From Burkholderia lata (lineage in GTDB: Bacteria > Pseudomonadota > Gammaproteobacteria > Burkholderiales > Burkholderiaceae), in NCBI RefSeq assembly GCF_000012945.1, contig NC_007511.1, positions 930,001 through 994,000 on the forward strand: a stretch of DNA of 64,000 nt. The letters run 5' to 3'. Made by a program: the position numbers and the translations under genes. Below are positions 38,159-57,339 of the stretch, one piece after another (the stretch's first letter is position 1; the number at the start of each line of letters is the position of its first letter). The notes beneath the pieces were generated by a model that searched no databases, was not told where the DNA came from, and saw nothing but the letters and a program-made list of their open reading frames with translations.

Positions 38159-38349
38159 GGTGGCCCTCGCATGTCCATAAAGGAGTGTTTGCGGGACCTA
38201 TGTTGCAACTTCCGGGCCAGGGACAGGATCGTCAGTAATCGAAAGCCGACGGCACCGCCGCAGGCGGCGCGGCAGCCTTGAATTTAAAAGAATTTTTAAC
38301 GGGAGGCGCGCGGCGGACAAAAAAGGGGCCGGGGCAACGGTGAAGGATT

Positions 38350-38399
38350 GTTACGTAGCATCGGCGGGCGACGTTACGGGCGTTACGTCCGACGTAACG
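38350..38399. promoter_or_regulatory. Cluster of GTTACG elements with an inverted repeat
   Basis: GTTACG occurs at 38350, 38373 and 38382. The last forms a perfect inverted repeat CGTTACGT-ccg-ACGTAACG (38381-38399). It lies ~200 bp upstream of the stand-alone wHTH gene and ~190 bp before fic. OmpR-type proteins bind repeated hexamers, so this is a candidate site for that protein. Confidence 0.4.
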
Positions 38400-38465
38400 T
38401 GCGGGGGTAGGCGGGAACTGCATGGGTTACACACTCGCAGCGCGAGTAGGAAGTCGGGTAAATGA

Positions 38466-38579
38466 AACCCTACATGGAACCCTACATTCAACCCTACTCA
38501 TTCAATGGGAAAGTTTATATAAATCATCAACATAAGTGAATATAATTGCCGACAACGAACCCTACATTGAACCCGACAG
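38466..38579 (+). repeat. Phased AACCCTACAT repeats around the fic promoter
   Basis: Two clusters with 12-bp periodicity: AACCCTACAT at 38466 and 38478 plus AACCCTACT at 38490; then AACCCTACAT at 38558 and the variant AACCCGACAG at 38570. Between them the DNA is AT-rich and holds TATAAT at 38541. The second cluster sits between the -10 box and the fic ATG (38586). This layout fits repressor sites that straddle the promoter, perhaps bound by Fic's own winged helix. Confidence 0.65.
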
Positions 38580-38585
38580 CGAAGT

Positions 38586-42120: not shown

Positions 42121-42122
42121 GG

Positions 42123-42584
42123 TCAGGCTCCCAGCGTCGCGGCCGCGTCGTGGATCGCCGCCCGAATGCGGGCGTAGGTCGCACAGCGGCACAGGTTGCC
42201 GTTCATCGCGGCGTCGATGTCCGCGTCGGTCGGCTTCGGGTTCTGTTCGAGCAGCGCGGTGGCCGACATGATCTGGCCGGACTGGCAGTAGCCGCACTGC
42301 GGCACCTGCAGCTTGACCCAGGCGGCCTGCACGGCGTGCGCGGGCTTGCTCTGCAGGCCTTCGATCGTCGTGATGTGCTTGCCCGCGATGCCGGCGAGCG
42401 GCAGCACGCACGAGCGGACGGCCTGGCCTTCGAGATGCACGGTGCACGCGCCGCACTGCGCCATGCCGCAGCCGAACTTCGTGCCGGTCAGTCCCGCGTG
42501 TTCGCGAATCGCCCAGAGGACGGGCATCGACGGATCGGCATCGAGCGTGACGTTCTTGCCGTTCAGGACAAACGAGGTAGGCAT
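42123..42584 (-). CDS. 2Fe-2S subunit of the molybdo-oxidoreductase
   Basis: 153 aa, IorA type. The plant-type cluster ligands are '[21 protein letters not shown]', and the second cluster is held by 'CGYCQSGQ' and '[11 protein letters not shown]'. It transfers electrons from the molybdenum subunit encoded downstream. First gene of the operon; the AraC gene and a direct-repeat operator lie upstream in the divergent direction. Confidence 0.92.
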
Positions 42585-42665
42585 TTTGATTGTCTCCGTG
42601 GGGAAAACCCGGCATGCGCCCGGTTAGCGGGCAGTGTGCGCGAGCAGCCGATTTTTGCGTCTACC

Positions 42666-42699
42666 CAATCCTGCAAATTTATTGAACAATCCTGCAAAT
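42666..42699. promoter_or_regulatory. Direct-repeat operator between iorAB-like operon and AraC gene
   Basis: CAATCCTGCAAAT occurs at 42666-42678 and again, identically, at 42687-42699. The 21-bp step is two helical turns, the spacing expected for an AraC-family dimer binding direct half-sites. It lies in the divergent promoter region. Confidence 0.7.
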
Positions 42700-42765
42700 C
42701 CCCGGCAGGTCGCGGGTGGTTTCGCTATGCTCCCGCGACATGAGGAAATCTATCGAGGACGCGTC

Positions 42766-43689
42766 ATGGACATGACCGATATCGTGACGTCGCGCGAATC
42801 CGGGCGGCGCGAGCTGGCGATGCTGATCAGCCGCTTCGCACCGGCGGACGGCTCGCATTCGACGGCCGTGCCGGGTTTGATGCTGCACCGGCACACGCGC
42901 CCGGTCGATATGGGCTGCGGCGTGTCGCGGGCCGCACTCGTGATTGCCGCACAGGGCGCGAAGCGCGTGATCGTGGCCGGCCAGGCTTACGAGTACGACG
43001 CGCAGAATTGCCTGATTACATCGATCGACTTGCCAATCCTGTCGCGCGTGACGCGCGCGTCGCCGGACGCGCCGTACCTGTGCCTGTCGCTGACGCTCGA
43101 TCCGCAGCGCATCGTCGAGCTCGCGGCCGAGATGCGGTTGCCCGAACCCGATGCGGGCCCCGAAGGCGAGGGGATCGCGCTCGCCGAACTGACGCCGCCG
43201 CTGCTCGATGCTGCGCTGCGGCTGATGCGGCTGCTCGATACGCCGGCCGACATTGCGGTCGTCGCGCCGCTGATCGAAAAGGAACTGCTGTACCGGCTGA
43301 TGACGAGCGGGCAGGGCACGCGGCTGCGGCACATGGCGATCGCGGGCAGCCAGACGCACCGGATCGCACGCGCGATCGAATGGATTCGCGACCACTTCGC
43401 GGAGCCGATGCGCGTCGAGTCGCTCGCGCAGGCGGTCAACATGAGCGTGTCGTCGCTGCACCATCATTTCAAGCACGTGACGACGCTGAGCCCGCTGCAG
43501 TACCAGAAGCAGCTGCGGCTGCACGAGGCGCGGCGGTTGCTGCTGCGGCAGGGCGGCGATGTCGGGTCGGTGGCCGCCGTCGTCGGCTATGAAAGCGCGT
43601 CGCAGTTCAGCCGCGAATACAGCCGGCTGTTCGGCGCGCCGCCGATGCGCGACGTCGTGCAGTTGCGGAAGAAGGAACTGCTCGGCTGA
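42766..43689 (+). CDS. AraC-family regulator (AraC_N type)
   Basis: 307 aa from the ATG at 42766 with GAGG upstream (an in-frame ATG at 42727 is possible). N-terminal AraC_N domain: 'HTRPVDMGCGVSRAALVIAAQGAKRVIVAGQAYEYDAQNCLITSIDLPI'. C-terminal double HTH: 'MSVSSLHHHFKHVTTLSPLQYQKQLRLHEARRLL' and 'VGYESASQFSREYSRLFG'. Divergent from the molybdo-oxidoreductase operon, a pairing common for AraC_N proteins and alcohol or aldehyde oxidising enzymes. Probably activated by the enzyme's substrate. Confidence 0.88.
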   Translation: MDMTDIVTSRESGRRELAMLISRFAPADGSHSTAVPGLMLHRHTRPVDMGCGVSRAALVIAAQGAKRVIVAGQAYEYDAQNCLITSIDLPILSRVTRASPDAPYLCLSLTLDPQRIVELAAEMRLPEPDAGPEGEGIALAELTPPLLDAALRLMRLLDTPADIAVVAPLIEKELLYRLMTSGQGTRLRHMAIAGSQTHRIARAIEWIRDHFAEPMRVESLAQAVNMSVSSLHHHFKHVTTLSPLQYQKQLRLHEARRLLLRQGGDVGSVAAVVGYESASQFSREYSRLFGAPPMRDVVQLRKKELLG

Positions 43690-43726: not shown

Positions 43727-46387
43727 TCACCTGGCGACCACCGTCGTCTGCAGGAACGCCGGCGCGATCCGCCAGTCTGGCACGTAATGCGCCGGCCACG
43801 CGCCGGGCGTATCGACCGCGTTGAAATACACCACGGCCTTCAGCAGCGGATAGCGCCACAGCGACCGCTGGAATTCGTCGAGTTCCTCGCGCTTGCGCGA
43901 ATTCGATCCGTCGATGCCCAACTCGGTGACCATCACCGGCAGCCCGTAGTCGGTCACCCGCTCGTACTTGGTCCGCAGGATGCTCGCGGCGGACGCGTGG
44001 CCGCCGGCCGGCCAGATCGCGCAGCGCGGGCAGTCGAACACGGACAGGCCGACATCGTCCACATAGCTGCGGCCCGGGAAATAGTCGTCGAGGTTCCGGT
44101 TGCCGGCCGGCGACCACACGAAGCGGATCTGGTTGGTCATCGTGCGGCAGGTGGTCACGACCCGCCGGTACGCATCCACGTAGGCCGACGCATCGCCGAT
44201 GGCCCACGGGTAGCGTCCGGTGTCGGCCTCCATCTCGTGGCCCCAGCGCACGAACACGGGGCCCTTCAACGCGGCGAGCGCCGAGCAGGCGGCCGCGATC
44301 CGCGCGTCGTAGCGCCCGTGCGCGATATCCTCGAGCAGTGCGCCTTGCCGCGTGTCGCCGGCCGCCCAGGGCTCGATGGTCAGCATCAGTGAGCGGTTGC
44401 GCGCCTGCGCGCTCCGGTACGCATCGTCGATTTCCGCGCGGACGTCGGGCGCGTTCCACGACACGAACACATGGTCGAACGCGAGATCCCGATCGGCCGC
44501 GAGCGTCTGCTCGGGATCGTAGGCGCCGAGTTCGGGCTGCTTCACCGGTTCGCCCGGCACGGGCGCGACCACGGCCGGCAAACCCGAGCGCCACATCATC
44601 GCCTGCCAGCCTTTCGGCGCGCGCAGCCCGATACCCGACAACAGTATCGCGAGCGCGAACACGAACAGCGCGTTGCGCACGGGCAGGCGGCTGAAGAACA
44701 TCTGCCTGAATGCCGACCACTCGAGCCCTTGCTCCCTGCCGTGATTCACGGTGACGACGGCCGCGATCACGAGATACAGGATGCTCGTCAGCGTCGAGAA
44801 CAGATAGAAGCCGGCCGCGTTGCGCGGATTCTCGACCGTGACCACGGGCAGGCTGCAGAACAGCGAGATCAGCAGATACGGGGCAACCACGCGCAGCGGC
44901 GCGTCCTGTTCGATCGTGCCGCCTTTCGGCGTGACCTTGAACGGAAATTCCTTCCCGCGCACGCAGTCGAACACCGCCGATGCGCAGCCGAGCACGACCC
45001 ACGGCCAGCGCGCGAACACGAACGACAGCCCTTCCCACGACAGCAGTTTCGTATTCAGCGGCCGGCACGACTGGGTCGAATGCGTGGCCCAGGTCACGAC
45101 GCACAGGATCAGCACGGTCAGCGGCAGCGCGTAGGTGAGATACGTGAGGTAGTCGACGTGTGCCCACACGCGGCCGGTAAGCAGCGCGACGACCGGAATC
45201 ACGACGCTGCCGGCCATCGCGAGCGCGCATAGCGGGTACCACAGCTGGCAGAACAGGAACTGCGCCTTCAGCCTCAGCGGCAGCCCCATGAAATAGTGGC
45301 GCGTGTAGCGCAGCATGATGATCATCACGCTCTTGGACCACTGGAATTCCTGCGTGGCCAGGTCGCCGAACGTGCGCGGCCCTTCGCCGTTCGCGATCGC
45401 GTTCAGCGCATGCATGCCGCGCCAGCCCTTCGAATTGAAGATCATCGTGGTCGAGTGATCCTCGGCGAGCTCGGGCCCGAGCCCGCCGATCTCGCGCAGC
45501 GCGCGGCAGCGCACCGCATAGTGCGAGCCGATGCACAGCGGCGCGAGGCCGCTCGCGTAGCCGGCCTGCATCGTGCCGTGCAGCGGCCCCTCGACGTTCA
45601 CGCGCCCGCGTGCGCTCCAGCTCCCGGCCGCGTTGCTGTCGCAGATGCTCGGCGCCGACACGTAGCCGACTGCCGGATCGACGAACGGCCGCAGCATCTC
45701 CTCGAGATAGGTGCGGGTCGGCACGTGGTCGGCATCGAGCTGCGACACGAAATCGTAGTTGTCGTACCCGTACATGTCGTAGAAGTACGCGAGATTGCCT
45801 TCCTTGCACTTGGTGCGGCGCGGCCAGCTCGTCCGGTGGTACGCGGCAATGCCGCGCCGCGTCGACACGAACACGCCGTGCTCGCGGCACCAGTCGAGCG
45901 TCTCGGGCGACGGGTCTTCATCGGCGAGCCACGTATCGTGCGGGTAGGTCTGGTCGAGCATCGCGAGCAGCGTCGTGCGCACGATGTCGAACGGCTCGGA
46001 CGGCGCCTTGGTGACGACCATCGCGACGCGCCAGTCGCGCGGCACCGGCAGCGCGGGATTCGGCACGACCGCCGAGCGGATGATGAAGATGAAGTAGCCG
46101 GGAATGAAGGTGGTCCAGAACAGCACGAAGCAGTTGACGCCGAAGCGGAACGCGTCGACGTAGTGCTCGTCGCGCAACCACCAGCGCCAGAAGATGCCCA
46201 GCGCGACGAACCAGCACAGCGCGAGGATGTGGAAGACGATCTTGCTCCCGCTGTCCATCAACGGGACGAGGAGCGGGACGTCCGCGTTCATCGAGGCGGT
46301 GCGATCCGCTTCAGCGTCGGTGGTCTCGGTGGTGTCGGCGGTATCCGGCGCAGGGCCGCCGGCAAGCGACGCAACCAGCTTCTTCAT
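43727..46387 (-). CDS. Membrane glycosyltransferase 2 fused to GH26-like hydrolase
   Basis: 886 aa. Two N-terminal helices, then a cellulose-synthase-like GT2: 'DQTYPHDTWLADEDPSPETL', DxD in 'SQLDADHVP', 'ELAEDHSTT', and 'QEFQWSKS' in place of QxxRW. More helices follow to about residue 590. The C-terminal ~270 residues look like GH26: 'FVRWGHEMEADTGRYPW' carries the acid/base Glu, 'VMVTELGIDGS' the nucleophile Glu. A synthase joined to a beta-glycan hydrolase suggests that chains are cut or trimmed as they leave the membrane. Last gene of the sugar operon with ugd, an epimerase and uxs. Confidence 0.85.
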   Translation of the reverse strand: MKKLVASLAGGPAPDTADTTETTDAEADRTASMNADVPLLVPLMDSGSKIVFHILALCWFVALGIFWRWWLRDEHYVDAFRFGVNCFVLFWTTFIPGYFIFIIRSAVVPNPALPVPRDWRVAMVVTKAPSEPFDIVRTTLLAMLDQTYPHDTWLADEDPSPETLDWCREHGVFVSTRRGIAAYHRTSWPRRTKCKEGNLAYFYDMYGYDNYDFVSQLDADHVPTRTYLEEMLRPFVDPAVGYVSAPSICDSNAAGSWSARGRVNVEGPLHGTMQAGYASGLAPLCIGSHYAVRCRALREIGGLGPELAEDHSTTMIFNSKGWRGMHALNAIANGEGPRTFGDLATQEFQWSKSVMIIMLRYTRHYFMGLPLRLKAQFLFCQLWYPLCALAMAGSVVIPVVALLTGRVWAHVDYLTYLTYALPLTVLILCVVTWATHSTQSCRPLNTKLLSWEGLSFVFARWPWVVLGCASAVFDCVRGKEFPFKVTPKGGTIEQDAPLRVVAPYLLISLFCSLPVVTVENPRNAAGFYLFSTLTSILYLVIAAVVTVNHGREQGLEWSAFRQMFFSRLPVRNALFVFALAILLSGIGLRAPKGWQAMMWRSGLPAVVAPVPGEPVKQPELGAYDPEQTLAADRDLAFDHVFVSWNAPDVRAEIDDAYRSAQARNRSLMLTIEPWAAGDTRQGALLEDIAHGRYDARIAAACSALAALKGPVFVRWGHEMEADTGRYPWAIGDASAYVDAYRRVVTTCRTMTNQIRFVWSPAGNRNLDDYFPGRSYVDDVGLSVFDCPRCAIWPAGGHASAASILRTKYERVTDYGLPVMVTELGIDGSNSRKREELDEFQRSLWRYPLLKAVVYFNAVDTPGAWPAHYVPDWRIAPAFLQTTVVAR

Positions 46388-46413
46388 GGTGTTCTCCCGT
46401 CAAGGTCAGATCA

Positions 46414-47817
46414 TCAGTCTTGAAGCAGGCCGCGCTGCGGCCGGGTGTCCTCGTTCGCGTGCTGTTGTTCCGGTGCCGGGTCGGCCGGCGTGCGTTCGCC
46501 GCACGAGCGGCCCACGCGTTCGTAGCGGCGAAAGCCGCTGTCGACAGCGAGCCGTTCGCTGAACAGGTTGCGCATGTCGAGCATCACGGGATCGGCCATG
46601 TGATCCGCGAGGTCGGCGAGATCGAGTGCCTCGAACGCCTTCCATTCGGTCATCACGACGACGGCGTCCGCGCTGCGCACCGCATCGATCGCGGAGCCCT
46701 CCATGAATACCTGCGGCAGCAGCCGCGACGCTTCGTGCGGACGCGCCGGGTCGTATGCGCGGATATGCGCGCCCGCGCCGACGAGCAGCTGGATCACGTC
46801 GATGCTCGGGCTTTCGCGCACGTCGTCGGTCTGGCCTTTGAACGTGAGGCCGAGCACCGCGATGCGCTTGTCCTTGATCGAGCCGCCGCAGGCCTTCTCG
46901 ATGCGGCGCAGGATCTGCTCCTTGCGCAGCGCATTCGATTCGATCGCCGCGCTGACGATGCGCAGCGGCACCGCATGTTCGGAAGCCGTCGCCTTCAGTG
47001 CGCGCGTGTCCTTCGGAAAGCACGAGCCGCCCCAGCCGGGGCCGGCCTTCAGGAACGATGCGCCGATGCGGCGGTCGAGGCCCATGCCGTTCGCGACCAG
47101 TTCGACATCGGCGCCGACGGCTTCGCACAGGTCCGAGATCTCGTTGATGTAGCTGATCTTCACCGCGAGGAATGCATTCGCCGCGTATTTCACGAGTTCG
47201 GCCGTTTCGATCTCGGTTGCAAGCACGAGATGGCCCATCGCTTCCAGCGGCGCATAGATGGCCTTCATGATCTCGATCGCACGCGGATGCTCGGCGCCGA
47301 ACACGACGCGGTCCGGGTGCATGAAATCGTCGATCGCCGACCCTTCGCGCAGGAACTCCGGATTCGATGCGATCGCCGTGTCGATGCCGTCCGGCGCGCA
47401 GCGTTCGACGATCTGCTTGACGATCCGGTTGGTGCCGACCGGCACGGTCGACTTCGTGACGACGACCGCGAAACCGGTCAGGTTCGACGCGATCTCGCGC
47501 GCGGCCGCCTCGACGTACTGCAGGTCTGCCTGGTCGGTGCCCGGCAGCGTCGGCGTGCCGACCGCGATGAATACCGCGTCGCGATCGCACACGCTCGCCG
47601 CGAGGTCGCTGCTGAAGCGCAGCGTGCCGCGTTCGACGTTGCGTGCGACGACGGCGTCGAGGCCCGGTTCGTAGATCGGCATGCGTCCTTCGTTCAGCGC
47701 GTCGATCTTGCCGCGATTGTTGTCGATGCAGACGACGTCATGCCCGAGATCCGCAAAGCACGCGCCGCTGACCAGCCCGACGTAGCCCGTGCCGACGATG
47801 GCGATCCGTACCTTCAT
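46414..47817 (-). CDS. ugd: UDP-glucose 6-dehydrogenase
   Basis: 467 aa. Makes UDP-glucuronate from UDP-glucose with 2 NAD+. N-terminal Rossmann 'IAIVGTGYVGLVSGACFADLGHDVVCID', 'NPEFLREGSAIDDFMHPDRVVFG' and the catalytic Cys in 'GWGGSCFPKDTRAL'. The last ~25 residues are a polar, Glu/Gln-rich tail not needed for the fold. Lies between the epimerase (35 bp gap) and the glycosyltransferase (26 bp gap), so it is part of the same transcript. Confidence 0.93.
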   Translation of the reverse strand: MKVRIAIVGTGYVGLVSGACFADLGHDVVCIDNNRGKIDALNEGRMPIYEPGLDAVVARNVERGTLRFSSDLAASVCDRDAVFIAVGTPTLPGTDQADLQYVEAAAREIASNLTGFAVVVTKSTVPVGTNRIVKQIVERCAPDGIDTAIASNPEFLREGSAIDDFMHPDRVVFGAEHPRAIEIMKAIYAPLEAMGHLVLATEIETAELVKYAANAFLAVKISYINEISDLCEAVGADVELVANGMGLDRRIGASFLKAGPGWGGSCFPKDTRALKATASEHAVPLRIVSAAIESNALRKEQILRRIEKACGGSIKDKRIAVLGLTFKGQTDDVRESPSIDVIQLLVGAGAHIRAYDPARPHEASRLLPQVFMEGSAIDAVRSADAVVVMTEWKAFEALDLADLADHMADPVMLDMRNLFSERLAVDSGFRRYERVGRSCGERTPADPAPEQQHANEDTRPQRGLLQD

Positions 47818-47852
47818 GGTGATTCCCCTGCGTGGCGTTCAAGGAAACTTGC

Positions 47853-48842
47853 TTACTTGCCGGATTCGAATTGCAGTGCTTTCTGAAACCACGCCGCGGC
47901 GTGTTCGACCATCGGTTCGATCGCGGTGAAACTCGGCCGCCAGCCGAGCACGAGCGCGGCTTTCGTGGCGTCGGCGTACAGCTCGGGCGGGTCGCCCGGG
48001 CGGCGCGCGGCCGTTACCGTCGGCACGCGGCGGCCCGTCACGGCTTCGACGGCGCGCAGTGCGTCGAGTACCGACGTTCCTTTGCCGGTGCCGAGATTCA
48101 GTGCGACGCTGTGGCCGCCGCCGCACAGATAGGCGGTCGCTTTCAGGTGCGCGTCGGCGAGGTCGCTGACATGCACGTAATCGCGAATCGCCGAGCCGTC
48201 GGGCGTCGGGTAGTCGGCGCCCATTACCTGGAACGCATGGCCGGTGCCGAATGCCGCGCGAATCGCGAGCGGCAGCGCGTGCGTTTCCGGTTCGTGGCAT
48301 TCGCCGATCTCGCCGTCAGGGTCCGCACCGGCCGCGTTGAAGTAGCGCAGCGCGACCCACTTCAATCCGTATGCACGCTCGAAATCGGCCGCCATCCGTT
48401 CCATCGCGTACTTCGTGAAGCCGTACGGATTGATCGGCCGCTGCGGCGTGCGCTCCGAGATCGGCAGGCCGTCCGGAATGCCGTACGTCGCGCACGACGA
48501 CGACATCACGATCCGGCCGACGCCCGCCGCGTGCATCGCGCTCAGCAGCATGCAGGTGCCCGTGACGTTGACCGTGTAATAGCGGTCGGGCGCGAGCACC
48601 GAATCGCCGACGTACGCGAGCGCGGCGAAATGGATCACGACGTCGGGCCGGTGCGCGGCGAACGCCTTCGACAGCGCGTCGCGGTCGAGAATGTCGGCGG
48701 TGACGAGCGGTCCCCATCGCACCGCATCGCGATGGCCGGTCGACAGATTGTCGTAGGCGACCGGTTCGTGTCCCGCTGCCGCGAGCGCCTTGCAGGTATG
48801 GCTGCCGATATAGCCCGCTCCGCCTGTCACGAGCACTTTCAT
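47853..48842 (-). CDS. galE: UDP-sugar 4-epimerase (GalE-like)
   Basis: 329 aa from the ATG at 48842. SDR fold: 'VLVTGGAGYIGSHTCKAL', catalytic pair in 'YGFTK', 'SSSCATYG'. Annotated GalE by similarity, but it overlaps uxs by 4 bp and sits behind ugd. UDP-xylose/UDP-arabinose epimerisation, as by known GalE-like UXE enzymes, is therefore equally likely. An active-site difference that would settle this cannot be read with confidence. Confidence 0.85.
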   Translation of the reverse strand: MKVLVTGGAGYIGSHTCKALAAAGHEPVAYDNLSTGHRDAVRWGPLVTADILDRDALSKAFAAHRPDVVIHFAALAYVGDSVLAPDRYYTVNVTGTCMLLSAMHAAGVGRIVMSSSCATYGIPDGLPISERTPQRPINPYGFTKYAMERMAADFERAYGLKWVALRYFNAAGADPDGEIGECHEPETHALPLAIRAAFGTGHAFQVMGADYPTPDGSAIRDYVHVSDLADAHLKATAYLCGGGHSVALNLGTGKGTSVLDALRAVEAVTGRRVPTVTAARRPGDPPELYADATKAALVLGWRPSFTAIEPMVEHAAAWFQKALQFESGK

Positions 48843-49846
48843 GCCGTGGCCCCGGTCAGGCGCAGCACCGGCGCGAGCCACAGTTCACGACTGAAATAGT
48901 CGACGGTCCGGCGCAGCCCTTCGTCGAGATCGATGCCCGGCCGCCAACCGAACTCGGTCGACGCGACCGAGATGTCGGGCTTGCGCTGGTGCGGATCGTC
49001 GATCGGCAGCGGCCGGAACACGATCTCCGATTTCGAGCCCGTCATCGCGAGCACTTTCTCCGCGAGCTCGATCATCGTGAATTCGCCGGGGTTGCCGATG
49101 TTGACCGGCGTGCCGACGTTGCGCTCGGCGCTCATCAGGCAGAAGAAGCCGTCGATCAGGTCGCTGGCGAAGCAGAACGAGCGCGTCTGCTTGCCGTCGC
49201 CGTAGATCTCGAGCGGCGCGCCGTTGAGTGCGCCGACGATGAAGTTCGACACGACGCGGCCGTCGCGCGGCGACATCCGCGGGCCATAGGTGTTGAAGAT
49301 GCGCGCGACACGCACGTCGATGCCGTGCGTGCGGTAGTAGTCGTAGCACAGCGCCTCGGCCGCGCGCTTGCCTTCGTCGTAGCACGCGCGCGGGCCGATC
49401 GTGTTCACGTTGCCGCGATAGGTTTCCGTCTGCGGGTGCACGTCCGGGTCGCCGTAGATCTCGCTGGTCGACGCCTGGAACACGCGTGCGCCCGTCTTGC
49501 GCGCGAGTGCGAGGCAATGGTTCATGCCGAGCACGTTGGTCATCATCGTATGGACGGGATCGATCTGGTAGGTGGGCGGCGATGCCGCGCACGCGAGATT
49601 CCAGATCTCGTCCACCTGCAGTTGCGGCAGGCCGAGCGATACGTCGCCCTTCACGAACTCGAAGCGGCCGGACGCTTTCAGGTCGGCGACGTTGAGCTTG
49701 CGCCCCGTCAGCAGGCTGTCGATGCACGTGACGGACGCGCCTTCCATGACGAGGCGTTCGCACACGTAGCTGCCGAGAAAGCCGGCGCCGCCCGTCACCA
49801 GGACGCGCTGCCCAGCGCGCGTCTCGAGCGCGACCCTGTCATTCAT
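48839..49846 (-). CDS. uxs: UDP-glucuronate decarboxylase (UXS)
   Basis: 335 aa. Converts UDP-glucuronate to UDP-xylose with bound NAD+. SDR with 'VLVTGGAGFLGSYVCERL', 'ACAASPPTYQIDPVHTM', 'ASTSEIYGDPDVHPQTE', 'GNVNTIGPRACYDEGKRAAE' (Tyr-x3-Lys in context) and 'RIFNTYGPRMSPRDGRVVSNFI', all standard for UXS. Uses the product of ugd in the same operon. Its start overlaps the stop of the small upstream frame (49839-49846), pointing to coupled translation. Confidence 0.92.
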   Translation of the reverse strand: MNDRVALETRAGQRVLVTGGAGFLGSYVCERLVMEGASVTCIDSLLTGRKLNVADLKASGRFEFVKGDVSLGLPQLQVDEIWNLACAASPPTYQIDPVHTMMTNVLGMNHCLALARKTGARVFQASTSEIYGDPDVHPQTETYRGNVNTIGPRACYDEGKRAAEALCYDYYRTHGIDVRVARIFNTYGPRMSPRDGRVVSNFIVGALNGAPLEIYGDGKQTRSFCFASDLIDGFFCLMSAERNVGTPVNIGNPGEFTMIELAEKVLAMTGSKSEIVFRPLPIDDPHQRKPDISVASTEFGWRPGIDLDEGLRRTVDYFSRELWLAPVLRLTGATA

Positions 49847-50063
49847 GGCTTTCTCCTTCGTCGTTCAGCTCCGGGAACCACACGTCGAGCAGTTCGACGG
49901 CGGCGCGCACGCGTTCCATCCCGCTGCATGGGTAGCGTTTCGGCAAGCGCCGGTTCGCTCGTGCTGATGTCGACGAAGCGCCGCGACAGGCGCTCCGGTT
50001 TCGCTGACTACCCCGTTGATGCTTGAACGACGCACGCGTCGATCGATCGGTGGTGATCTTCAT
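49839..50063 (-). CDS. Small protein, 74 aa, coupled to uxs
   Basis: Starts MKITTDRSTRASFKHQ at 50063 with GGGGAAAAGG upstream; ends 'VELLDVWFPELNDEGESHE', overlapping the uxs start by 8 bp. Basic first half, acidic last quarter. It is the first frame after the sigma54-type promoter at 50153-50167, with a predicted ~78-nt untranslated leader. No family recognised; may be a translation-coupling leader or a small regulator. Confidence 0.5.
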   Translation of the reverse strand: MKITTDRSTRASFKHQRGSQRNRSACRGASSTSARANRRLPKRYPCSGMERVRAAVELLDVWFPELNDEGESHE

Positions 50064-50152
50064 CGCCTTTTCCCCGAGACGCTGATTGACGAGCAGGCCG
50101 CCGTTCGTGATCTTGTGCCTCGGCGTGCCGCTCGGTGAGAGCCGGAGATCAG

Positions 50153-50167
50153 GCAATCGGCATGCCA
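50153..50167 (-). promoter_or_regulatory. Sigma54-type promoter of the polysaccharide operon
   Basis: Minus strand TGGCATG-CCGA-TTGC. GG and GC are 10 bp apart as required for RpoN. Six of seven -24 bases and all of TTGC match TGGCACG-N4-TTGC. Transcription would begin near 50141 and lead into the 74-aa frame, uxs, galE, ugd and the glycosyltransferase. Confidence 0.65.
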
Positions 50168-51013
50168 TGAACGATGCCGTCACGATGCGCACGGGCGTGG
50201 CGCCGAAATTGCCGCGCGATATGCGCGCTTCTGTTTCATGCATGTATCGTGGGGACAGAAAAGCGCGAGGGCCAATTGCCGGGTCGATACGATTCGATAC
50301 GACGAAATGCACGATAAATCAGGCTTTTGCGGGAGTGGCTTCGTCAAACAGGTGTTGAGCGGGAATGTTTCATCGATGAGAAATGCGCAGATAACGGGTT
50401 AAAAACGTTTCCCTCGTGTACTGCGAATCCGGCAATTCGGTGCGTGAAAGGCGGGGCGAATGAAAGTGAAAAAATGATGTGTGCCGTCCGGAGGGCGCGA
50501 GTTTTCATTTGTTTTAATTATTACGTTGGAACGGAAGTTTTCATTTTTACGGCCCATTTCGACGCTCGAGCGGGGTGTGATCCTGTCGGTATTTTCACGG
50601 ATGAATCAAATTCGTCCGGGTCGTCGGAGGAAACGTGTGTCGAAGCCTCGCCGAAGGCTACGGGATCGGGCTCCCGGTGCCCGGCGTCGCGCGTATCGAT
50701 TCTCGTTTGTGATGGCGCGGGAGGGGGCCGCACACGGTGCGATCTCCGGTTTCCAGGCGGAAATGCCCGCGCCGCCTGCCTTGCACGGCCGTGCGCTTCT
50801 CAAGTTTGAAACACTCGTTCATCTGGCCGTCCGGCACGGGCCTGCAGGCCGGATTCGTCCGTCTAATCCGGCAATTGCGTCGCGGCGCTCAACGATCGCC
50901 GGGGGTGTCAAACTGTTGTTGCGATACATTCCTGAAACAAAAAATGTCGTTTCGGGCGCTGCGTGCCGTCGCGGCGGCCGTTTGCCGAGCGCAATATGCG
51001 GTGGAATATCACG
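50168..51013. other. Divergent control region with repeats (candidate enhancer sites)
   Basis: About 850 bp with no supported gene. It is AT-richer at 50440-50560 and holds the direct repeat AGTTTTCATTT (50500-50510 and 50536-50546, 36 bp apart). Several GAAAC/GTTTC elements occur, for example near 50935-50960 and 50367-50385. An enhancer-binding protein would be expected to bind somewhere here. Confidence 0.4.
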
Positions 51014-51028
51014 TGGCACGCTGCTTGC
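51014..51028 (+). promoter_or_regulatory. Sigma54-type promoter of the exported-protein operon
   Basis: TGGCACG-CTGC-TTGC matches the RpoN consensus perfectly, with GG and GC 10 bp apart. Transcription would start near 51040, giving a ~900-nt leader before the first exported-protein gene. Confidence 0.75.
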
Positions 51029-51039
51029 GGTATTGGACG

Positions 51040-51938
51040 CACCGGCGGGCGGTCGACACGAAGTAACGAAGAGGTGGGGCGGCCAACTCGTCAATAAGCA
51101 GTCGGGGAAACGGCGATGAAGACCATAAGCAGTAGCTTGATCGGCGCGTACTTTATTACGCACCAATGGGGTAGTCGGAAAGACCGGGGTGACGCTCGCG
51201 ACGCTGTGCCAGCTTCGCGGGTTGCTCTGTCCCGGTTTCTTGCCCGCCGCGCGCTTCGCGTGCTGGCGCGGTTGTCGCGCCGTACGGCAGTCGGGCGACA
51301 GCGGTACTCGCTTTCATACAGTTCACCCGGATGGATCAGGCTGTTCGTGCCGGACAGCGTGATGCCGATTCGTCTTCGGACGTGCAGGGTCGCTTCGATC
51401 GCGCCTGGCCCATGCCGGCGCCGGCCGGATTAGATCGAACGCCCGTCGGCCGGATTATCCGGAAGACTTTCTTCGATAGCTCAGGGAGAAGACAGGCCAC
51501 CTGGCTGCAATGCAGGCCCGTTGTCGCCCGGATAAAGGGTGTATTTTCAACGGCGCTGCATTTTGCGGTGGTTAATGTATTCGCGAATTTTCGATTCCGG
51601 AAATGGGATGTCTATTAATGGCATGCCGTCCGGCGGGGTGTCGAATATCGCAAGCCGGAAAGGTGTGCGCATCGTTCCGGTTTATCAGGCAATGGTGTTT
51701 TCGGTGTAAGTCCAATGTTCATAAAAATAATAGAAAACACCTACAAAAAAAGTTTGGATAACTAAAAATCGCGAAGCTAAGCTTCGTCTGGCCAAAATCA
51801 CAAAAAATTGAATTGAAAAGGCATCGGGATTTTTTTAATTAGATAGTGATCCTTAATTTCGAGGATTGCTCAAGTCGGGAAGGTTGATGGCGTGCGATCT
51901 TCCTGACTCACTCCGTCCACGCCGTTTTGGAGTCGACC
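51040..51938 (+). other. Long leader of the exported-protein operon
   Basis: Low coding signal. A 105-codon frame starts at 51116 with a modest RBS, but its codons look random and Arg-rich, so I do not call it. 51700-51860 is strikingly AT-rich for this genome and contains the palindrome CGAAGCT-A-AGCTTCG near 51773. A further promoter or a silencing (H-NS-type) element may sit here. Confidence 0.4.
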
Positions 51939-52262
51939 ATGAAGAAGCTTCTGATTGCAGCAGCAGTTCTGGCGGTTTCGGGTGCAGCGTTCGCTGGCAG
52001 CGGCACGGTGTCGAGCAGCAGCTCGTCGAGCGGCGGCCAAACGATGGCAGGGGTTGCTGGCTTCGGCCATTTCTCCGCAACCGATTCCGGCTCGGCACTC
52101 GGTGCAGCCGGCGCAGTTGCAGGCGGCCCGGGCAGCGGTTCGATCTCGTACACGAACCATACCCAAACGTCGACCGTCGGTGGCTTCGGCTTCGGCGGCT
52201 CGCAAGCCGGTGGCAACAGCGGTGCAAATGCCGGTTCGATCGGCTGGACGTATCACCACTAA
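51939..52262 (+). CDS. Exported Gly/Ser-rich low-complexity protein A
   Basis: 107 aa from the ATG at 51939 (MKKLLIAAAVLAVSGAAFAG) with GGAG upstream. Signal peptide ends after AFA. The mature ~87 residues are nearly all G, S, A, T, with aromatic and polar interruptions ('HFSATDSGS', 'GSISYTNHTQTSTVGGFGFGG'), ending 'GWTYHH'. Such sequence is typical of matrix or amyloid-forming subunits. No known family. First gene of the sigma54-controlled operon. Confidence 0.7.
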   Translation: MKKLLIAAAVLAVSGAAFAGSGTVSSSSSSSGGQTMAGVAGFGHFSATDSGSALGAAGAVAGGPGSGSISYTNHTQTSTVGGFGFGGSQAGGNSGANAGSIGWTYHH

Positions 52263-52373
52263 GCCGCGACGCGTAGCGTTCGTCATTGGCTGGCGGTACG
52301 GATGCCGGGTTCCGCTCGATGGGGGTTGACCCGGCTCCGCCACCGCCGAACTTACTCACAGCAAGGAATTGCT

Positions 52374-52964
52374 ATGAAAGCCAAAGTCATTTTCGCGACA
52401 GCGCTCACCGTCTTAGCGTCGGCTGCATTGGCAGCGGGTTCCTCCACGACCAACCAGACACAATCCGTTGCGGCGGGTGTTTCCGGTTCGGTCCTGGTCG
52501 GATCCGGCAGCTATACCAGCAATTCGACTTCGACGGCGGGCGCGAACGCGGGCAGTACGGTGACACCCGCTGGTTCCGCCGGCACGGCATCCGCCTTCCA
52601 CAACACGACTTCGACGGCCAGCGGTTCGGGCACGAACGGAGGCGCGTTTGCGGCAGGTGGCGGTATCGGTGCCGCAGGCTCGTACGGTGGAAACAGCAGC
52701 ACGAACGAGAACGCGAATGCGCTGTCGGGCGGGGTGAGCGCCACGATCGTCCTTGGTGCCAATCACTACACGGCTTCGAGTGCGAACGACCAGGGCGTTG
52801 CCAACGCGGGTGCCGCTGGGCTGACCGGCAGTGGTGGGTCAGGCGCGATCACGGGTTCGAATCACTACAACTCGTCGACCGTTTGGAGTACCGGTCCGGC
52901 CGGGTCGCCGTCCGCATCGGGCGGGAGCCAGGGCAGTGCAAGTGCGACCGGAAGCAGTCATTAG
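52374..52964 (+). CDS. Exported Gly/Ser/Thr/Asn-rich protein B
   Basis: 196 aa from the ATG at 52374, with AAGGAATT upstream. Signal peptide to about residue 21. The mature part has loose repeats: 'GSGSYTSNSTSTAGANAG', 'AFHNTTSTASGSG', 'GANHYTASSANDQG', 'GSNHYNSSTVWSTG'. The (H)Y-x-x-S-S element is spaced 30-50 residues apart, as in curli-like or other repeat fibre subunits. No Cys. Related in style to protein A. Function as a matrix or fibre protein is inferred. Confidence 0.7.
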   Translation: MKAKVIFATALTVLASAALAAGSSTTNQTQSVAAGVSGSVLVGSGSYTSNSTSTAGANAGSTVTPAGSAGTASAFHNTTSTASGSGTNGGAFAAGGGIGAAGSYGGNSSTNENANALSGGVSATIVLGANHYTASSANDQGVANAGAAGLTGSGGSGAITGSNHYNSSTVWSTGPAGSPSASGGSQGSASATGSSH

Positions 52965-53038
52965 TCAGGTGTGGGGGGGCCAGTTTCCCAGCGACGCTGG
53001 TCTCTTTTCCCCACATTGTTGTCACGTAAGGAGTTGGC

Positions 53039-53320
53039 ATGAAGCAGAAACTGATTGCCGCCGCTCTGATGCTCGCGTCTCTGACGGCGTATGGCGCTGA
53101 CCGTATTGCCAACGACGTGCAATCGAATTTGCAGACGTCAAACAACCCTGACCAGACAACCAAACCGTCAGAACAACAAACGCTTTCTTCGGGCAGTGCC
53201 ATCGGCGGACCAGACGCCCAGCAGTGGCAGGGCATGTCGGCCGGCTCATGGTCCCAGCTGGGTAACGGCTGGAAACAGTTCGGGGAAGCAGGCAAAGCTG
53301 AAGGGAATCAGGGGAATTAG
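53039..53320 (+). CDS. Small exported protein C
   Basis: 93 aa, start behind AAGGAG. Signal peptide ends after 'TAYGA'. The mature ~73 residues are Gln/Asn/Ser/Gly-rich: 'NDVQSNLQTSNNPDQTTKPSEQQTLSSGSAIG', then 'WQGMSAGSWSQLGNGWKQFGEAG' with evenly spaced Trp. No family recognised. Could be a minor fibre or nucleator subunit; that is a guess from context. Confidence 0.65.
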   Translation: MKQKLIAAALMLASLTAYGADRIANDVQSNLQTSNNPDQTTKPSEQQTLSSGSAIGGPDAQQWQGMSAGSWSQLGNGWKQFGEAGKAEGNQGN

Positions 53321-53364
53321 TACGGTTGCCTGGGTGGGAGGTCAAACCTCGTCCGGAGAGTGAA

Positions 53365-55065
53365 ATGAACAGCAACAGGATCAAGGTGGCATGCGCAGCG
53401 ATGTTCGCGATGACCACGATCGGCGCCCAAGCGCAAACCGCCGATTCGACTTCGAGCGCACAGTCCTCGACGTCGTCTTCGTCGATCAGCCAGGGCGGCG
53501 GCTCGAGCATGAACACGAACACCACGAGCTCGCGCGGCGGTAACGCTACCAGCTCCAGCGGGGTTCGCAGCAGCGGCAATTCGAGCGTGAACGTGAACGT
53601 GACGATGCCGTCCAGCACGAGCGGCGGCACGAACGTGACGCCGCAGTCGCTGCAGTCATCCGGCGCGCCAGGCACCAACCCGTACAACACCCAGTCAGCG
53701 GAAAACGTCAATTACTCGGGTACGCAGACGATCAAGACCAACCCCGCGATCCAGGCGCCGGGCCTCACGACCACGCTGTCCGATACCTGTATGGGGTCGG
53801 TGAGCGTCGGCGTGTCGTTCCCGGGGTTCGGCGCGACGGGTGGTACGACACTCGTCGACCAGGCCTGCGTCCGACGTCTCGATGCACGTGAATTCCGCGC
53901 GATGGGCCTGACCGACGTGGCGCTCGCGCTGCTCTGCCAGAGCGACGCGAACCGGCGTGCAGTTGAAGCGACCGGGCACCTGTGCCCGGGCACGACCGCG
54001 CCGCTCGCCCGTTCGAACGTGGCGCCGAGCGTAGAAGCGACGGTTGCCGACGACGTGAAGTATCGCGATCCGATCGTGCGCGACCGCATGGGCTTGCCGC
54101 CGCTGGGCGCTGCCGCGCCGGCACCGGCGCAACCCCGCCCGGTGGCGACGACCTCGGTGCAGGCGGCACCCGTGTCGGTGCCGGTACCTGTGCCCGTGCC
54201 GTCGATGGCGCCGATTGCCGCTGCACCGGCCGTCGCCGCACCGGCTGTTGCCGCTGCCGCACCGGCAGTGGCGGCGCCGGCTGTCGCAGCCGCCCCGGCC
54301 GTCGCAGCCCCCGCCGTTGCCGCCGCGGTACCGGCCGCAGCAGCAGCGCCCGCAGCGGCTGCCGTACCTGCTGTCGCCGCCGCACCCGCAGCATCGGTCG
54401 TCCCGGCGGCTGCGATTGCAGCCGTACCGGCTGCCGCCGTGATCGCCGCACCGGCAGTTGCGGACAAGGCATCGCCCGCACCTGCCGAGCCGGTTGCCGA
54501 CACGAAGGCACCGGAGCCCGTGCAGCCCGTGGCCGACAAGGCGCCTGAGCCCGTACCGGCCGTGGCCGACAAGGCACCGGAGCCCGCACCGGCAGTCGCC
54601 GACAAGGCACCGGAGCCCGCACCGGCGGTTGCCGACAAGGCGCCGGAGCCTGCACCGGCAGTCGCCGACAAGGCGCCGGAGCCGATCCCGGCCGCGACCG
54701 ACAACGCAGCGCAAGCCGCTGCCGCGCCGGCTGCGGACACGACGCCGGCCGCTGCCGTCGTCGCGGTGCCAGCCGTGGAGACCGCGATGCCTGCACCGGC
54801 AGCCGATGCGAAGGCCGTCGAGCCGGCGCCGGTCGCCGCCGAAGCGCCCGCGCCGGAAGCCGCGCAGCCTGCCGTAGCCGCAGCGCCTGCCGACATGCCG
54901 ACCGCCGACGCGAAGGTGCCGGAAGCCGCCGCGCAGGCCGCCGACATGCCGGTGTTGTCCGATCCGGCGCAAGGATTGCCGCCGGCTTCGGTCGACCAGC
55001 AGGCTGCCCCGGCTGCCCCGGTCGTGCCGGCTCCGGCCGTGATCTCGACGAGCACGTCGTCGTAA
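53365..55065 (+). CDS. Large exported protein D with Ser/Asn, Cys-domain and Ala/Pro repeat regions
   Basis: 566 aa from the ATG at 53365, with GGAGAG upstream. Signal peptide ends near 'GAQAQT'. Three parts. First, Ser/Asn/Gly/Thr-rich residues ~25-135. Second, a compact domain of ~90 residues with conserved-looking Cys ('DTCMGSVSVGVSFPGFGA', 'DQACVRRLDAREFRAMGLTDVALALLCQSD', 'GHLCPG'). Third, a long Ala/Pro/Val tail with five 11-residue units of VADKAPEP-type. The tail could span the periplasm or wall, and the middle domain could anchor. No known family for the whole. Confidence 0.7.
   Translation: MNSNRIKVACAAMFAMTTIGAQAQTADSTSSAQSSTSSSSISQGGGSSMNTNTTSSRGGNATSSSGVRSSGNSSVNVNVTMPSSTSGGTNVTPQSLQSSGAPGTNPYNTQSAENVNYSGTQTIKTNPAIQAPGLTTTLSDTCMGSVSVGVSFPGFGATGGTTLVDQACVRRLDAREFRAMGLTDVALALLCQSDANRRAVEATGHLCPGTTAPLARSNVAPSVEATVADDVKYRDPIVRDRMGLPPLGAAAPAPAQPRPVATTSVQAAPVSVPVPVPVPSMAPIAAAPAVAAPAVAAAAPAVAAPAVAAAPAVAAPAVAAAVPAAAAAPAAAAVPAVAAAPAASVVPAAAIAAVPAAAVIAAPAVADKASPAPAEPVADTKAPEPVQPVADKAPEPVPAVADKAPEPAPAVADKAPEPAPAVADKAPEPAPAVADKAPEPIPAATDNAAQAAAAPAADTTPAAAVVAVPAVETAMPAPAADAKAVEPAPVAAEAPAPEAAQPAVAAAPADMPTADAKVPEAAAQAADMPVLSDPAQGLPPASVDQQAAPAAPVVPAPAVISTSTSS
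54529..54693 (+). repeat. 33-bp tandem repeat, five units, within protein D
   Basis: Units start at 54529, 54562, 54595, 54628 and 54661, each coding V-A-D-K-A-P-E-P plus P/A/V residues. Copy number can change by slippage without breaking the frame, so length may vary between strains. Confidence 0.8.
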
Positions 55066-55079
55066 GCACGCGGGTCGGA

Positions 55080-55113
55080 CTCCCGTGCGGCCGGAACGCA
55101 GGTCGCACGGGAG
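55080..55113 (+). terminator. Hairpin inside the operon after gene D
   Basis: 10-bp arms CTCCCGTGCG (55080-55089) and CGCACGGGAG (55104-55113) with a 14-nt loop and only CCTTTC behind. Too weak to stop all transcription; may lower expression of the downstream genes. Confidence 0.4.
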
Positions 55114-55221
55114 CCTTTCGAACCCGATGCCCGACGGTCGTTTCCTGTTTGACGGGTGTTGATCCCATCCCCGAGGTCAACACCTCTTTTTGCCCGACGA
55201 GGATGCAAGGAGGCCTCAATC

Positions 55222-55806
55222 ATGAGGATCTTTTTGGTCGCTCTGTTGTTGTACAGCGCGCAAGCCGCAGCGCAAGCGGTATTTCAGAACCCGGCGGTCT
55301 TCGTGATCCTGGGCGAGCAGACCGCCGCGAACGCCGTGAGCGTCGAGCAGGCGTTGACGACGCTCGGTCGCGCCGACAACACGGCATGCGCGCCGATGAT
55401 GATGATCGGCGATCCGCAGATGATCTACATGATGCCGGAGGAAGGTCACGCACCGTCGTGGCAATCGCCGGTGTACGGCCGTGGCGCGCCGTTCGAAGCG
55501 CAGAACGGGCCGGCGCCGACCGGCAAGACGATCGGCGCGATGCAGCATGCCGAGGACATGCAGACGCAGCCGTGGAGCGACGGCAGCGCGATCACGCAGA
55601 AGATCGCGGGCGAGTCGAGCGTGACGGCGGCGGACCGGGTGAGCGGGTGGCAGCGCAACGGGCTCAACTCGATCGAGACGGCCCCTGCGACGGAAGTCAC
55701 GGTGAACGGCAAGACCTACCGCGCCTATCGTGACGACCTCAACCGTTCCACGAAACCGGTCGTCGAGCCGCAGATCTACACGCAGCGCGTCGTTTTCTGC
55801 CGATAA
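55222..55806 (+). CDS. Exported protein E of unknown function
   Basis: 194 aa from the ATG at 55222 with AAGGAGG upstream. Short signal peptide (MRIFLVALLLYSAQAAAQA). Mature part is globular rather than repetitive: 'NPAVFVILGEQTAANAVSVEQALTTLG', a Met-rich stretch 'ACAPMMMIGDPQMIYMMPEEG', and a C-terminal 'VTVNGKTYRAYRDDLNRSTKPVVEPQIYTQRVVFCR' with likely disulfide partners. No family recognised. Sits just upstream of the regulator gene; may assist assembly or secretion. Confidence 0.7.
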   Translation: MRIFLVALLLYSAQAAAQAVFQNPAVFVILGEQTAANAVSVEQALTTLGRADNTACAPMMMIGDPQMIYMMPEEGHAPSWQSPVYGRGAPFEAQNGPAPTGKTIGAMQHAEDMQTQPWSDGSAITQKIAGESSVTAADRVSGWQRNGLNSIETAPATEVTVNGKTYRAYRDDLNRSTKPVVEPQIYTQRVVFCR

Positions 55807-55917
55807 CGAAACGTCAATCCGAGGACGGCCCGGCGCTGCGCCGCGGGACCACGATGCCCCGCGCTGCGCGATCCGGCGACGGCCGTTTCGACAACCAAAT
55901 CAAGCGACGAGGCCATC

Positions 55918-57339
55918 GTGAACTATTGCTGCCAGATCAGGGTGTCGGGCCCGCAGGATCTCGAACGCGATGCGGGTACGGCGCCGTTCGTTGCCGTCCG
56001 GCGCAATCATGTCGTACCGTCGCGGCCACTCGTCTACCTGTCGCAGCAGCACGATGCCGCGCTCGTCGATTGTCTCGAATCGCGCGGCTGGGACGTGTGG
56101 CGTGCGAAAACCGTTGCGGACGCACTGAATCTCGTCAAGGTGAACCGTCCGCATGCGGGCATCGTCGATTTCGGCAGCTTCGCGTCGCCCGACGTCACGT
56201 CGTTCGAGACGCTGCTGCGCGATCCGCGGGTCGGCTGGGTCGCGCTCGCCGACAATGAGCGGCTGCGGGATCTCACCATCGCGCGCCTGATTCGCCACTG
56301 CTGCTTCGACTACGTGCGCAATGTGACCGCCTATACGACGATCGGCTATCTGGTCGGCCACGCCTACGGGATGCTGAAGCTCGCGGACGGCAGCCCGGAC
56401 GCCGATGCGGCGCCCCCCGGCGGCACGATGATCGGCTCATGCGACGCAATGCGCCGCCTGTTCGCGACGATCCGCAAGGTCGCCAACACGGACGCCACCG
56501 TATTCATCGCCGGTGAATCCGGCACCGGCAAGGAGCTGACGGCAGCGGCGATCCACCAGCAGTCGTTGCGCGCCGACGCGCCATTCGTCGCCGTGAACTG
56601 CGCGGCCATTCCGTCGACGCTGCTGCAGGCCGAACTGTTCGGCCACGAGCGCGGCGCATTCACGGGCGCGCACCAGCGCAAGATCGGCCGGATCGAGGCC
56701 GCGCACGGCGGCACGCTGTTTCTCGATGAAATCGGCGACATGCCGTTCGAGAGCCAGGCGAGCCTGCTGCGCTTCCTGCAGGAAGGCACGATCGAGCGGC
56801 TCGGCGGGCACGCGTCGATTCCGGTGGACGTCCGGATCGTGTCGGCGACCCACGTCGATCTCGAGGCCGCGATGCAGGCGGGGCGGTTCCGTGCCGACCT
56901 GTACTACCGCCTGTGCGTGCTGCGCATCGACGAGCCGCCGCTGCGCGTGCGCGGCCGCGACATCATGCTGCTCGCCGACTACGTGCTGCGGCGCTATCGC
57001 GGTGACAGTTCGCACCGGATTCGCGGCTTCATGCCGTGCGCGATCGAGGCGATCCACAACTATCCGTGGCCCGGCAACGTGCGCGAGCTGATCAACCGGA
57101 TCCGGTTCGCGGTGGTGATGACGAACGGCCCGATGATCTCGGCCGCCGATCTCGAACTGCACCCGTACACGTCGCGGCGGCCGCCGACGCTCGCGGAAGC
57201 GCGCCGGCAGGCCGAGCGGCACGCGATCGAGGAAACGCTGATGCGCCACCGCCACCAGCATGCGGACGTGGCGGCCGAGCTGGGCATCTCGCGCGCGACG
57301 CTGTATCGGCTGATGACCGCGCACGGGCTGCACGGCTGA
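55918..57339 (+). CDS. VpsR/BerB-like sigma54 enhancer-binding protein
   Basis: 473 aa, GTG start with GACGAGG upstream. N-terminal ~150 residues are a receiver-like domain lacking clear phosphorylation residues, as in VpsR. AAA+ domain: Walker A 'GESGTGKE', the sigma54-contact loop 'GAFTGA', Walker B 'GGTLFLDEIGDMP', 'R' finger region 'VRIVSATHVDLEAAMQAGRFRADLYYRL'. C-terminal Fis-type HTH 'DVAAELGISRATLYRLM'. Proteins of this kind bind c-di-GMP and activate exopolysaccharide genes. It probably activates both sigma54-type promoters in the divergent region. Confidence 0.85.
   Translation: MNYCCQIRVSGPQDLERDAGTAPFVAVRRNHVVPSRPLVYLSQQHDAALVDCLESRGWDVWRAKTVADALNLVKVNRPHAGIVDFGSFASPDVTSFETLLRDPRVGWVALADNERLRDLTIARLIRHCCFDYVRNVTAYTTIGYLVGHAYGMLKLADGSPDADAAPPGGTMIGSCDAMRRLFATIRKVANTDATVFIAGESGTGKELTAAAIHQQSLRADAPFVAVNCAAIPSTLLQAELFGHERGAFTGAHQRKIGRIEAAHGGTLFLDEIGDMPFESQASLLRFLQEGTIERLGGHASIPVDVRIVSATHVDLEAAMQAGRFRADLYYRLCVLRIDEPPLRVRGRDIMLLADYVLRRYRGDSSHRIRGFMPCAIEAIHNYPWPGNVRELINRIRFAVVMTNGPMISAADLELHPYTSRRPPTLAEARRQAERHAIEETLMRHRHQHADVAAELGISRATLYRLMTAHGLHG

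Follow-up and report, generated by a model that had tools for sequence, protein, structure and literature searches.

We analysed a 64,000-nucleotide stretch of the Burkholderia lata genome (hereafter the window) and find at positions 43727-57339 a locus that probably works as a sigma54 control module, activating its own expression and driving two outputs. Two divergent -24/-12 promoter sites separate a leftward (minus) arm of polysaccharide genes from a rightward (plus) arm that encodes exported proteins and a VpsR-domain enhancer-binding protein. In the mechanism we propose, this regulator (55918-57339) would bind dyads located between the promoters and, with RpoN, open both. Rightwards, orfS, the genes for five exported proteins and the regulator's own gene would be transcribed, a positive feedback; leftwards, transcription would reach an operon resembling the arabinose-polysaccharide (APS) operon of Sinorhizobium meliloti. 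Ugd and Uxs would then make UDP-xylose and a GalE/Uxe-type epimerase UDP-arabinose, a membrane GT2 would polymerise an arabinose-containing polysaccharide, its GH26 domain would trim the polymer outside the membrane, and the exported proteins would join the polymer in a matrix. The genes, promoter motifs, dyads, conservation, APS-type gene order and survival of a promoter-regulator unit are direct observations on the DNA.

A more specific picture is put forward tentatively: a regulator responsive to cyclic dimeric guanosine monophosphate (c-di-GMP) may act through a shared enhancer of five dyads to produce a two-part matrix, composed of an arabinose-type polymer made by a fused synthase-hydrolase and a low-complexity coat of expA-expE, with an expA-expD core extending beyond Burkholderia. 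If true, the same polymer pathway would have been wired to c-di-GMP independently in rhizobia (by CuxR) and in Burkholderia (by a VpsR-type protein). What seem new are the exported proteins and the wiring, the polysaccharide belonging to a known kind.

A VpsR-type regulator and two divergent promoter sites

55918-57339, plus strand: VpsR-domain sigma54 enhancer-binding protein, BerB paralogue (PF20161; PF00158, Sigma54_activat; AAA_lid_14; HTH_8)
51014-51028, plus strand: plus -24/-12 site TGGCACGCTGCTTGC, exact consensus match, conserved
50153-50167, minus strand: minus -24/-12 site TGGCATGCCGATTGC, one mismatch, conserved

The original prediction, made from the DNA letters, called the regulator a VpsR/BerB-like sigma54 activator, and its VpsR domain (PF20161, 68.4 bits against a cut-off of 23.7), sigma54 domain and GAFTGA motif (residue 246) uphold this. 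With an AAA+ domain carrying Walker A (residue 199), the GAFTGA and a DNA-binding domain, the protein has the predicted make-up of a sigma54 enhancer-binding protein. VpsR of Vibrio cholerae, which it resembles in the PF20161 domain and in the match of residues 52-413 to the solved VpsR 7v2b, works independently of sigma54; the regulator here has an intact GAFTGA and -24/-12 sites at its locus.

The regulator is also like BerB, described in PMC5552954 as a sigma54 activator with AAA+, GAFTGA and a C-terminal DNA-binding domain, encoded near exopolysaccharide genes, that acts together with RpoN and binds c-di-GMP. The signal here may likewise be c-di-GMP, as an analogy with BerB and VpsR suggests. 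The regulator is not BerB itself, an identity rejected on bep/berA synteny. BerB is BCAM1342, near bep in Burkholderia cenocepacia (PMC9684580; an assignment to Bcam2836 was rejected, the papers giving BCAM1342), and its syntenic counterpart in the B. lata genome, which we take to be BerB, is C3:2056619, 53-54% identical to the window regulator. That gene lies near a Crp-type gene (HTH_Crp_2) with TGGCACGTAAATCGC upstream and near Wzc-like and acyltransferase genes, and TGGCACGTAAATCGC is the site published for berA (PMC5552954, section 3.2). BerB acts through berA, whereas neither arm here has a gene of CRP type.

The B. lata genome comprises three contigs (8.68 Mb), with the window on the third, and the window's relatives are Burkholderia. 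It holds three close paralogues of the regulator (54-57% identity), and recognition helices are nearly the same in all four own-genome paralogues; two genes carry a Sigma54_DBD domain. Two regulator relatives, 58-67% identical, lie on opposite strands about 2.5-7 kb apart in five of eight genomes searched (G024, G033, G006, G065 and G080).

Both of the divergent -24/-12 sites that had been claimed are present, TGGCACGCTGCTTGC matching the consensus exactly and TGGCATGCCGATTGC with one mismatch. Their number is unremarkable, with 30 matches in the window (at most two mismatches) versus 37 expected from shuffles, and 20 genome-wide matches to TGGCAYRN4TTGC versus 11 for the reversed control. It is through conservation, not through motif count, that these predicted promoter sites stand above chance. 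We mapped 38 loci, 36 from genus genomes and two from plasmid-collection records, picked by expE presence or by DNA match to the window, so that this selection partly accounts for the plus arm being found in them. The plus site is kept in 37 of the 38 (the exception being L079). Thirty keep the minus site, namely all 16 loci whose minus arm is intact, eight of nine with arm remnants and six of 13 without the arm.

Candidate enhancer dyads and self-activation

50233-50248, no strand: dyad B4 GTTTCATGCATGTATC, 65 bp upstream of the minus site
50367-50382, no strand: dyad B5 GTTTCATCGATGAGAA, from the intergenic alignment
50592-50607, no strand: dyad B3 TTTTCACGGATGAATC, from the intergenic alignment
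50797-50812, no strand: dyad B2 TTCTCAAGTTTGAAAC, from the intergenic alignment
50923-50938, no strand: dyad B1 GATACATTCCTGAAAC, 75 bp upstream of the plus site

Between the promoters lie five 16-bp dyads, an addition to the original prediction, each consisting of a 6-bp half-site (KWYHCA), a 4-bp centre and an inverted half-site. The degenerate pattern matches the window five times, always between the promoters (shuffle mean 0.44), and across the 38 loci there are 157 dyads in 45.6 kb of promoter region versus three in 633 kb elsewhere; one of the three, in L091, itself precedes an exact sigma54 site by 75 bp. For comparison, activators of this kind typically sit about 80-150 bp upstream (PMC5552954).

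An alignment of the intergenic region (26 rows, 860 positions ranked by half-site conservation) gave average identities to the window of 93-100% for half-sites, 65-100% for centres and 62-79% for flanks. In all five dyads the half-sites are better conserved than the flanks, and in all but B1, where half-sites and centres are equal, better than the centres; B1 and B3 rank 4th, B2 14th, B5 26th and B4 35th. In an unselected set of 65 Burkholderia genomes, used for all counts of expE, orfS, B1 and GT2/GH26, B1 with one free base occurs exactly once per genome in 46, and its reversed control in none. In the B. lata genome, GWTWCA-N4-TGWAWC is found at six places versus one in the reversed control. 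Two of these are at this locus. Another precedes the gene for the closest paralogous regulator and lies 74 bp from a TGGCATGCATTTCGC site, which faces a 108-residue open reading frame (ORF) with a signal-like start. The dyads form a defined candidate enhancer for VpsR/BerB-type regulators, open to testing, and we infer that the 55918-57339 protein binds them.

Alternatively, the dyads could be sites of another DNA-binding protein, with the -24/-12 sites served by a distant activator. In favour of this, L091 (17.5 kb) retains a sigma54 site and a dyad but has no regulator match; the nearest relative there (63%) is on another contig of the genome. Because of L091 we also dropped the idea that dyads are missing wherever no regulator is linked. 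We consider this explanation very unlikely, since the dyads cluster at the regulator's locus, one lies upstream of the closest paralogue, and the loci L206-L208 retain dyad and regulator together. An identification of the dyad with the published BerB footprint was also dropped, since no dyad lies in roughly the stretch where, according to PMC5552954, BerB binding was mapped.

L206-L208 also bear on self-activation; the original prediction had supposed that the regulator feeds back positively on itself. In all three, the B1 dyad and the regulator (84-86%) are still in line with a TGGCATGCCGCTTGC site, which is 75-76 bp away from the dyad; no expA-expD match was found in any of them, an expE fragment is left in L207, and orfS occurs only in L206. 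The promoter has thus been kept before the regulator after loss of other cargo, which fits positive feedback: the promoter-regulator unit appears to outlive the exported genes, as self-activation would need.

Two further arrangements were seen on contig C2 of the B. lata genome. At L101 (8259-8720), a VpsR-type regulator and a small ORF diverge from a region that contains the perfect palindrome GTTTCAGGCCTGAAAC; the ORF has a -24/-12-like site and a signal-like start, and the layout is like a smaller version of this locus. A further divergent -24/-12 pair is at C2:158003 and C2:158195, about 180 bp apart.

A dispensable, APS-like polysaccharide arm

43727-46387, minus strand: CesA-like GT2 fused to GH26 (ApsS-ApsE-like), 886 residues (Pfam GT2 and GH26)
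46414-47817, minus strand: ugd, UDP-glucose 6-dehydrogenase
47853-48881 (start may be 48842), minus strand: galE-type UDP-sugar 4-epimerase, nearest to the epimerase of the S. meliloti APS operon
48839-49846, minus strand: uxs, UDP-glucuronate decarboxylase (UDP-xylose synthase), 361 bits to 2b69

All four genes predicted for this arm (uxs, galE, ugd and a GT2-GH26 fusion) are confirmed on the minus strand. The view that the protein set matches no known matrix system was not upheld, as the arm resembles the S. meliloti APS operon. The two share the order uxs, epimerase, GT2, GH26, the full S. meliloti order being an AraC regulator followed by uxs, galE, GT2, DUF995, GH26 and DUF995 (Aps gene names were assigned there by gene order). 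Identities to S. meliloti are 59% for uxs (uxs1), 55% for the epimerase, 54% over 568 residues for GT2 and 39% over 261 residues for GH26; by tblastn, the fused protein matches at 49% over 93%. The epimerase is closer to the S. meliloti gene than to the other GalE of its own genome (43%), and the uxs product scores 361 bits against UDP-glucuronate decarboxylase 1 (2b69) versus 151 bits against the best other enzyme. The S. meliloti product contains arabinose and is raised by c-di-GMP through CuxR (PMC7902896).

At the B. lata locus, GT2 and GH26 are fused, ugd is inserted, and a sigma54-type promoter and dyads precede the arm, whereas S. meliloti has an adjacent AraC-type gene and, upstream of uxs1, no -24/-12 match (at most two mismatches) and no dyad. 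Nothing in the window matches the two DUF995 genes of the S. meliloti operon (best E 0.49), and no CuxR-type AraC activator was found there, the AraC gene at 42634-43689 matching the S. meliloti one at only 26% over 78 residues. The arm thus shares the APS core and presumably works like APS, but we do not classify it as the APS system of S. meliloti. It would place an APS-like pathway under another regulator class than in rhizobia; we recognised no account of the locus, or of an APS operon in Burkholderia, in the open-licence literature as represented mostly by titles and abstract openings.

The polymer might instead be xylan or another glycan of xylose, galactose or uronic acid, which we hold to be somewhat unlikely. 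The solved relatives found for the GH26 domain are only xylanases, beta-1,3-xylanase 2ddx first, and ugd belongs to the operon, both of which favour such a glycan; a xylan synthase, suggested by the xylanase match, was demoted to this rival after the APS match. The gene order and four proteins shared with an operon whose product contains arabinose (PMC7902896, as above) speak for an arabinose polymer. The enzyme itself has the motif QxxQW, not QxxRW, in 75 of 75 aligned rows, S. meliloti included; cellulose synthases carry QxxRW. DxD, ED and both GH26 glutamates (E718 and E822) are likewise invariant in these rows, which are the relatives P0146-P0229 of 800-950 residues among the matches listed, plus S. 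meliloti. The alignment was used because regular expressions for the GH26 active site gave mixed counts (28 and 8 of 38). Fused and unfused GT2/GH26 relatives are widespread: of 7999 proteins scored, 3061 reach E 1e-30 (120 listed). One of them, P0199 of B. pyrrocinia (611 residues), carries epimerase domains and is 85% identical to half of the GT2/GH26 protein; two genes of the arm may have been fused here by an in-frame deletion.

The polysaccharide arm is dispensable. In the 38 loci it is intact in 16, scarred in nine and absent in 13, and thus not intact in 22 that keep exported genes. On a 37-row tree built from plus-arm proteins, its state changes at least seven times, five of the changes being forced by well-supported branches; repeated loss is the likelier direction because the scars keep different pieces of uxs and GT2. 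Among the 65 genomes, an intact GT2/GH26 gene is present in 20 (expE in 45), and one genome beyond these 20 has a GT2/GH26 fragment with a stop. With relatedness not corrected, intact genes occur in 20 of 46 genomes with B1 and in none of 19 without it.

The idea of one regulator for both arms stands in part. Each arm has a conserved -24/-12 site with the same dyad type 65-75 bp upstream; the arms are not an obligate unit. In a competing explanation, the regulator's control extends no further than its own gene and those of the exported proteins, and the polysaccharide arm is under another activator such as BerB. The 22 loci that keep dyads or exported genes with no intact minus arm, the nearly identical recognition helices of the four paralogous activators (BerB's included) and the one-base deviation of the minus site all favour it. 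We judge it unlikely, given that B4 stands upstream of the minus site on the same plan as B1, that the minus site and B4 (at most one mismatch) are present in 17 of 17 intact-arm rows and missing only from rows where the arm is not intact, and that no genome without B1 has an intact GT2/GH26. Taken together, the dyads and natural deletions lend support to one regulator with two arms, as far as sequence can. The natural losses, of the polysaccharide arm or of exported genes with promoter and regulator kept, also provide ready-made comparisons.

Exported proteins, counter-evidence and other features of the window

51116-51433, plus strand: orfS, conserved basic ORF of 105 residues, first after the plus site (leader alignment)
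51939-52262, plus strand: expA, Gly/Ser-rich exported protein, 107 residues; G+S+A+T+N 68%; 37 of 38 loci
52374-52964, plus strand: expB, Gly/Ser-rich exported protein, 196 residues; G+S+A+T+N 77%; 38 of 38 loci
53039-53320, plus strand: expC, small exported protein, 93 residues; 38 of 38 loci
53365-55065, plus strand: expD, exported protein; tblastn match in 36 of 38 loci
55222-55806, plus strand: expE, exported protein of no known family, 194 residues; 38 of 38 loci (mostly chosen for expE)

The five exported proteins and the GAFTGA activator ascribed to the plus arm are all found there, export being judged by eye from signal-peptide-like N-termini. A sixth gene besides expA-expE, orfS, which the original prediction had lacked, heads the operon. 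Its insertions and deletions in the leader alignment are mostly in threes; it spans 96-107 residues in 34 of 37 rows and is truncated in three, and it has a match in 44 of the 65 genomes, four of these with internal stops. The 505-nucleotide gap between orfS and expA (51434-51938) has short conserved blocks and an AT-rich stretch, and no Rfam family at the gathering threshold.

A conserved exported protein set is thereby named, with no family of known function found. Neither orfS nor expA-expE has a Pfam match above cut-off, and no known matrix-protein or amyloid family was matched. ExpD has a Ser-rich N-terminus, a conserved domain that contains Cys, and a variable Ala/Pro tail in which DKAPEP is repeated five times; it matches only phrog_20531 (function unknown). 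Domains of its type occur at 71 genome loci in several genera, reaching Herbaspirillum, Collimonas and others; a CheA label on several of these relatives is probably a misnaming of low-complexity sequence. We viewed the neighbourhoods of 47 of the 71 loci, the other 24 being Burkholderia. The ORFs around expD in five loci of other genera, read by eye, included no known amyloid or secretion partner that we recognised. Relatives of expA (46-55%) stand beside expD in Caballeronia and Paraburkholderia. ExpE has 66 matches, and those with an organism name are all Burkholderia.

The exported proteins could instead make up an envelope or surface layer of their own, with a distinct task, beside which the polysaccharide is an optional neighbour rather than a partner in a matrix. 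The wider spread of expE than of intact GT2/GH26 among the 65 genomes points this way, as do the expA-expD pairs of Caballeronia and Paraburkholderia, which have no regulator or polysaccharide match in the stretches examined and mostly no sigma54 site. The divergent promoters with their shared dyad type speak against a separate layer, as do the export signals and low-complexity composition, features common in matrix proteins. On balance we regard a separate layer as rather doubtful.

Several observations weigh against the two-output module itself. It is a prediction from sequence: the response to c-di-GMP, RpoN dependence, dyad binding by the regulator, co-transcription of the plus arm, the sugar, and exported proteins and polymer as matrix are all predicted, with UDP-arabinose and the identity of the sugar drawn by analogy. 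The dyad pattern was drawn up after viewing the five sites, so that its counts are no blind test, and other intergenic stretches are as conserved as the half-sites. No dyad lies in the approximate mapped BerB-binding stretch upstream of berA, the nearest being 276 bp upstream of the berA site, and L079 has no plus site, no dyad and no expA that we found. The minus site and minus arm co-occur (Fisher p 0.012), but relatives are non-independent, and an independent-pairs test of minus-site and B4 loss against the arm was not significant. Of the 20 rows that lack an intact arm, 14 retain the minus site and 14 retain B4, which may reflect slow decay or a region that also serves the plus arm. A terminator-like hairpin with a T run between expD and expE (55173-55186, plus strand) could cut expE and the regulator off from the plus promoter and slightly lowers our confidence; such hairpin sites are no commoner in the window than in shuffles (13 versus 11). 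Finally, models of expE and of the expD domain (predicted local distance difference test scores of 37.6 and 53.8) were too poor for a fold search.

Elsewhere in the window, the Burkholderia small RNA ncS035 (RF02870) has a full-length match of 183 bits at 22968-23135 (plus strand). ARAGORN calls a tRNA-Ser(cga) at 39919-40008 (minus strand), within the 3' end of a 901-residue ORF (39910-42615) that carries molybdopterin-binding domains, which is either a true overlap or one wrong call. Within 38001-39000, the G+C content drops to 55% near TGGCCCGGAAGTTGC at 38205, a -24/-12 site with one mismatch, and the same 15 bases are present in L206-L208.

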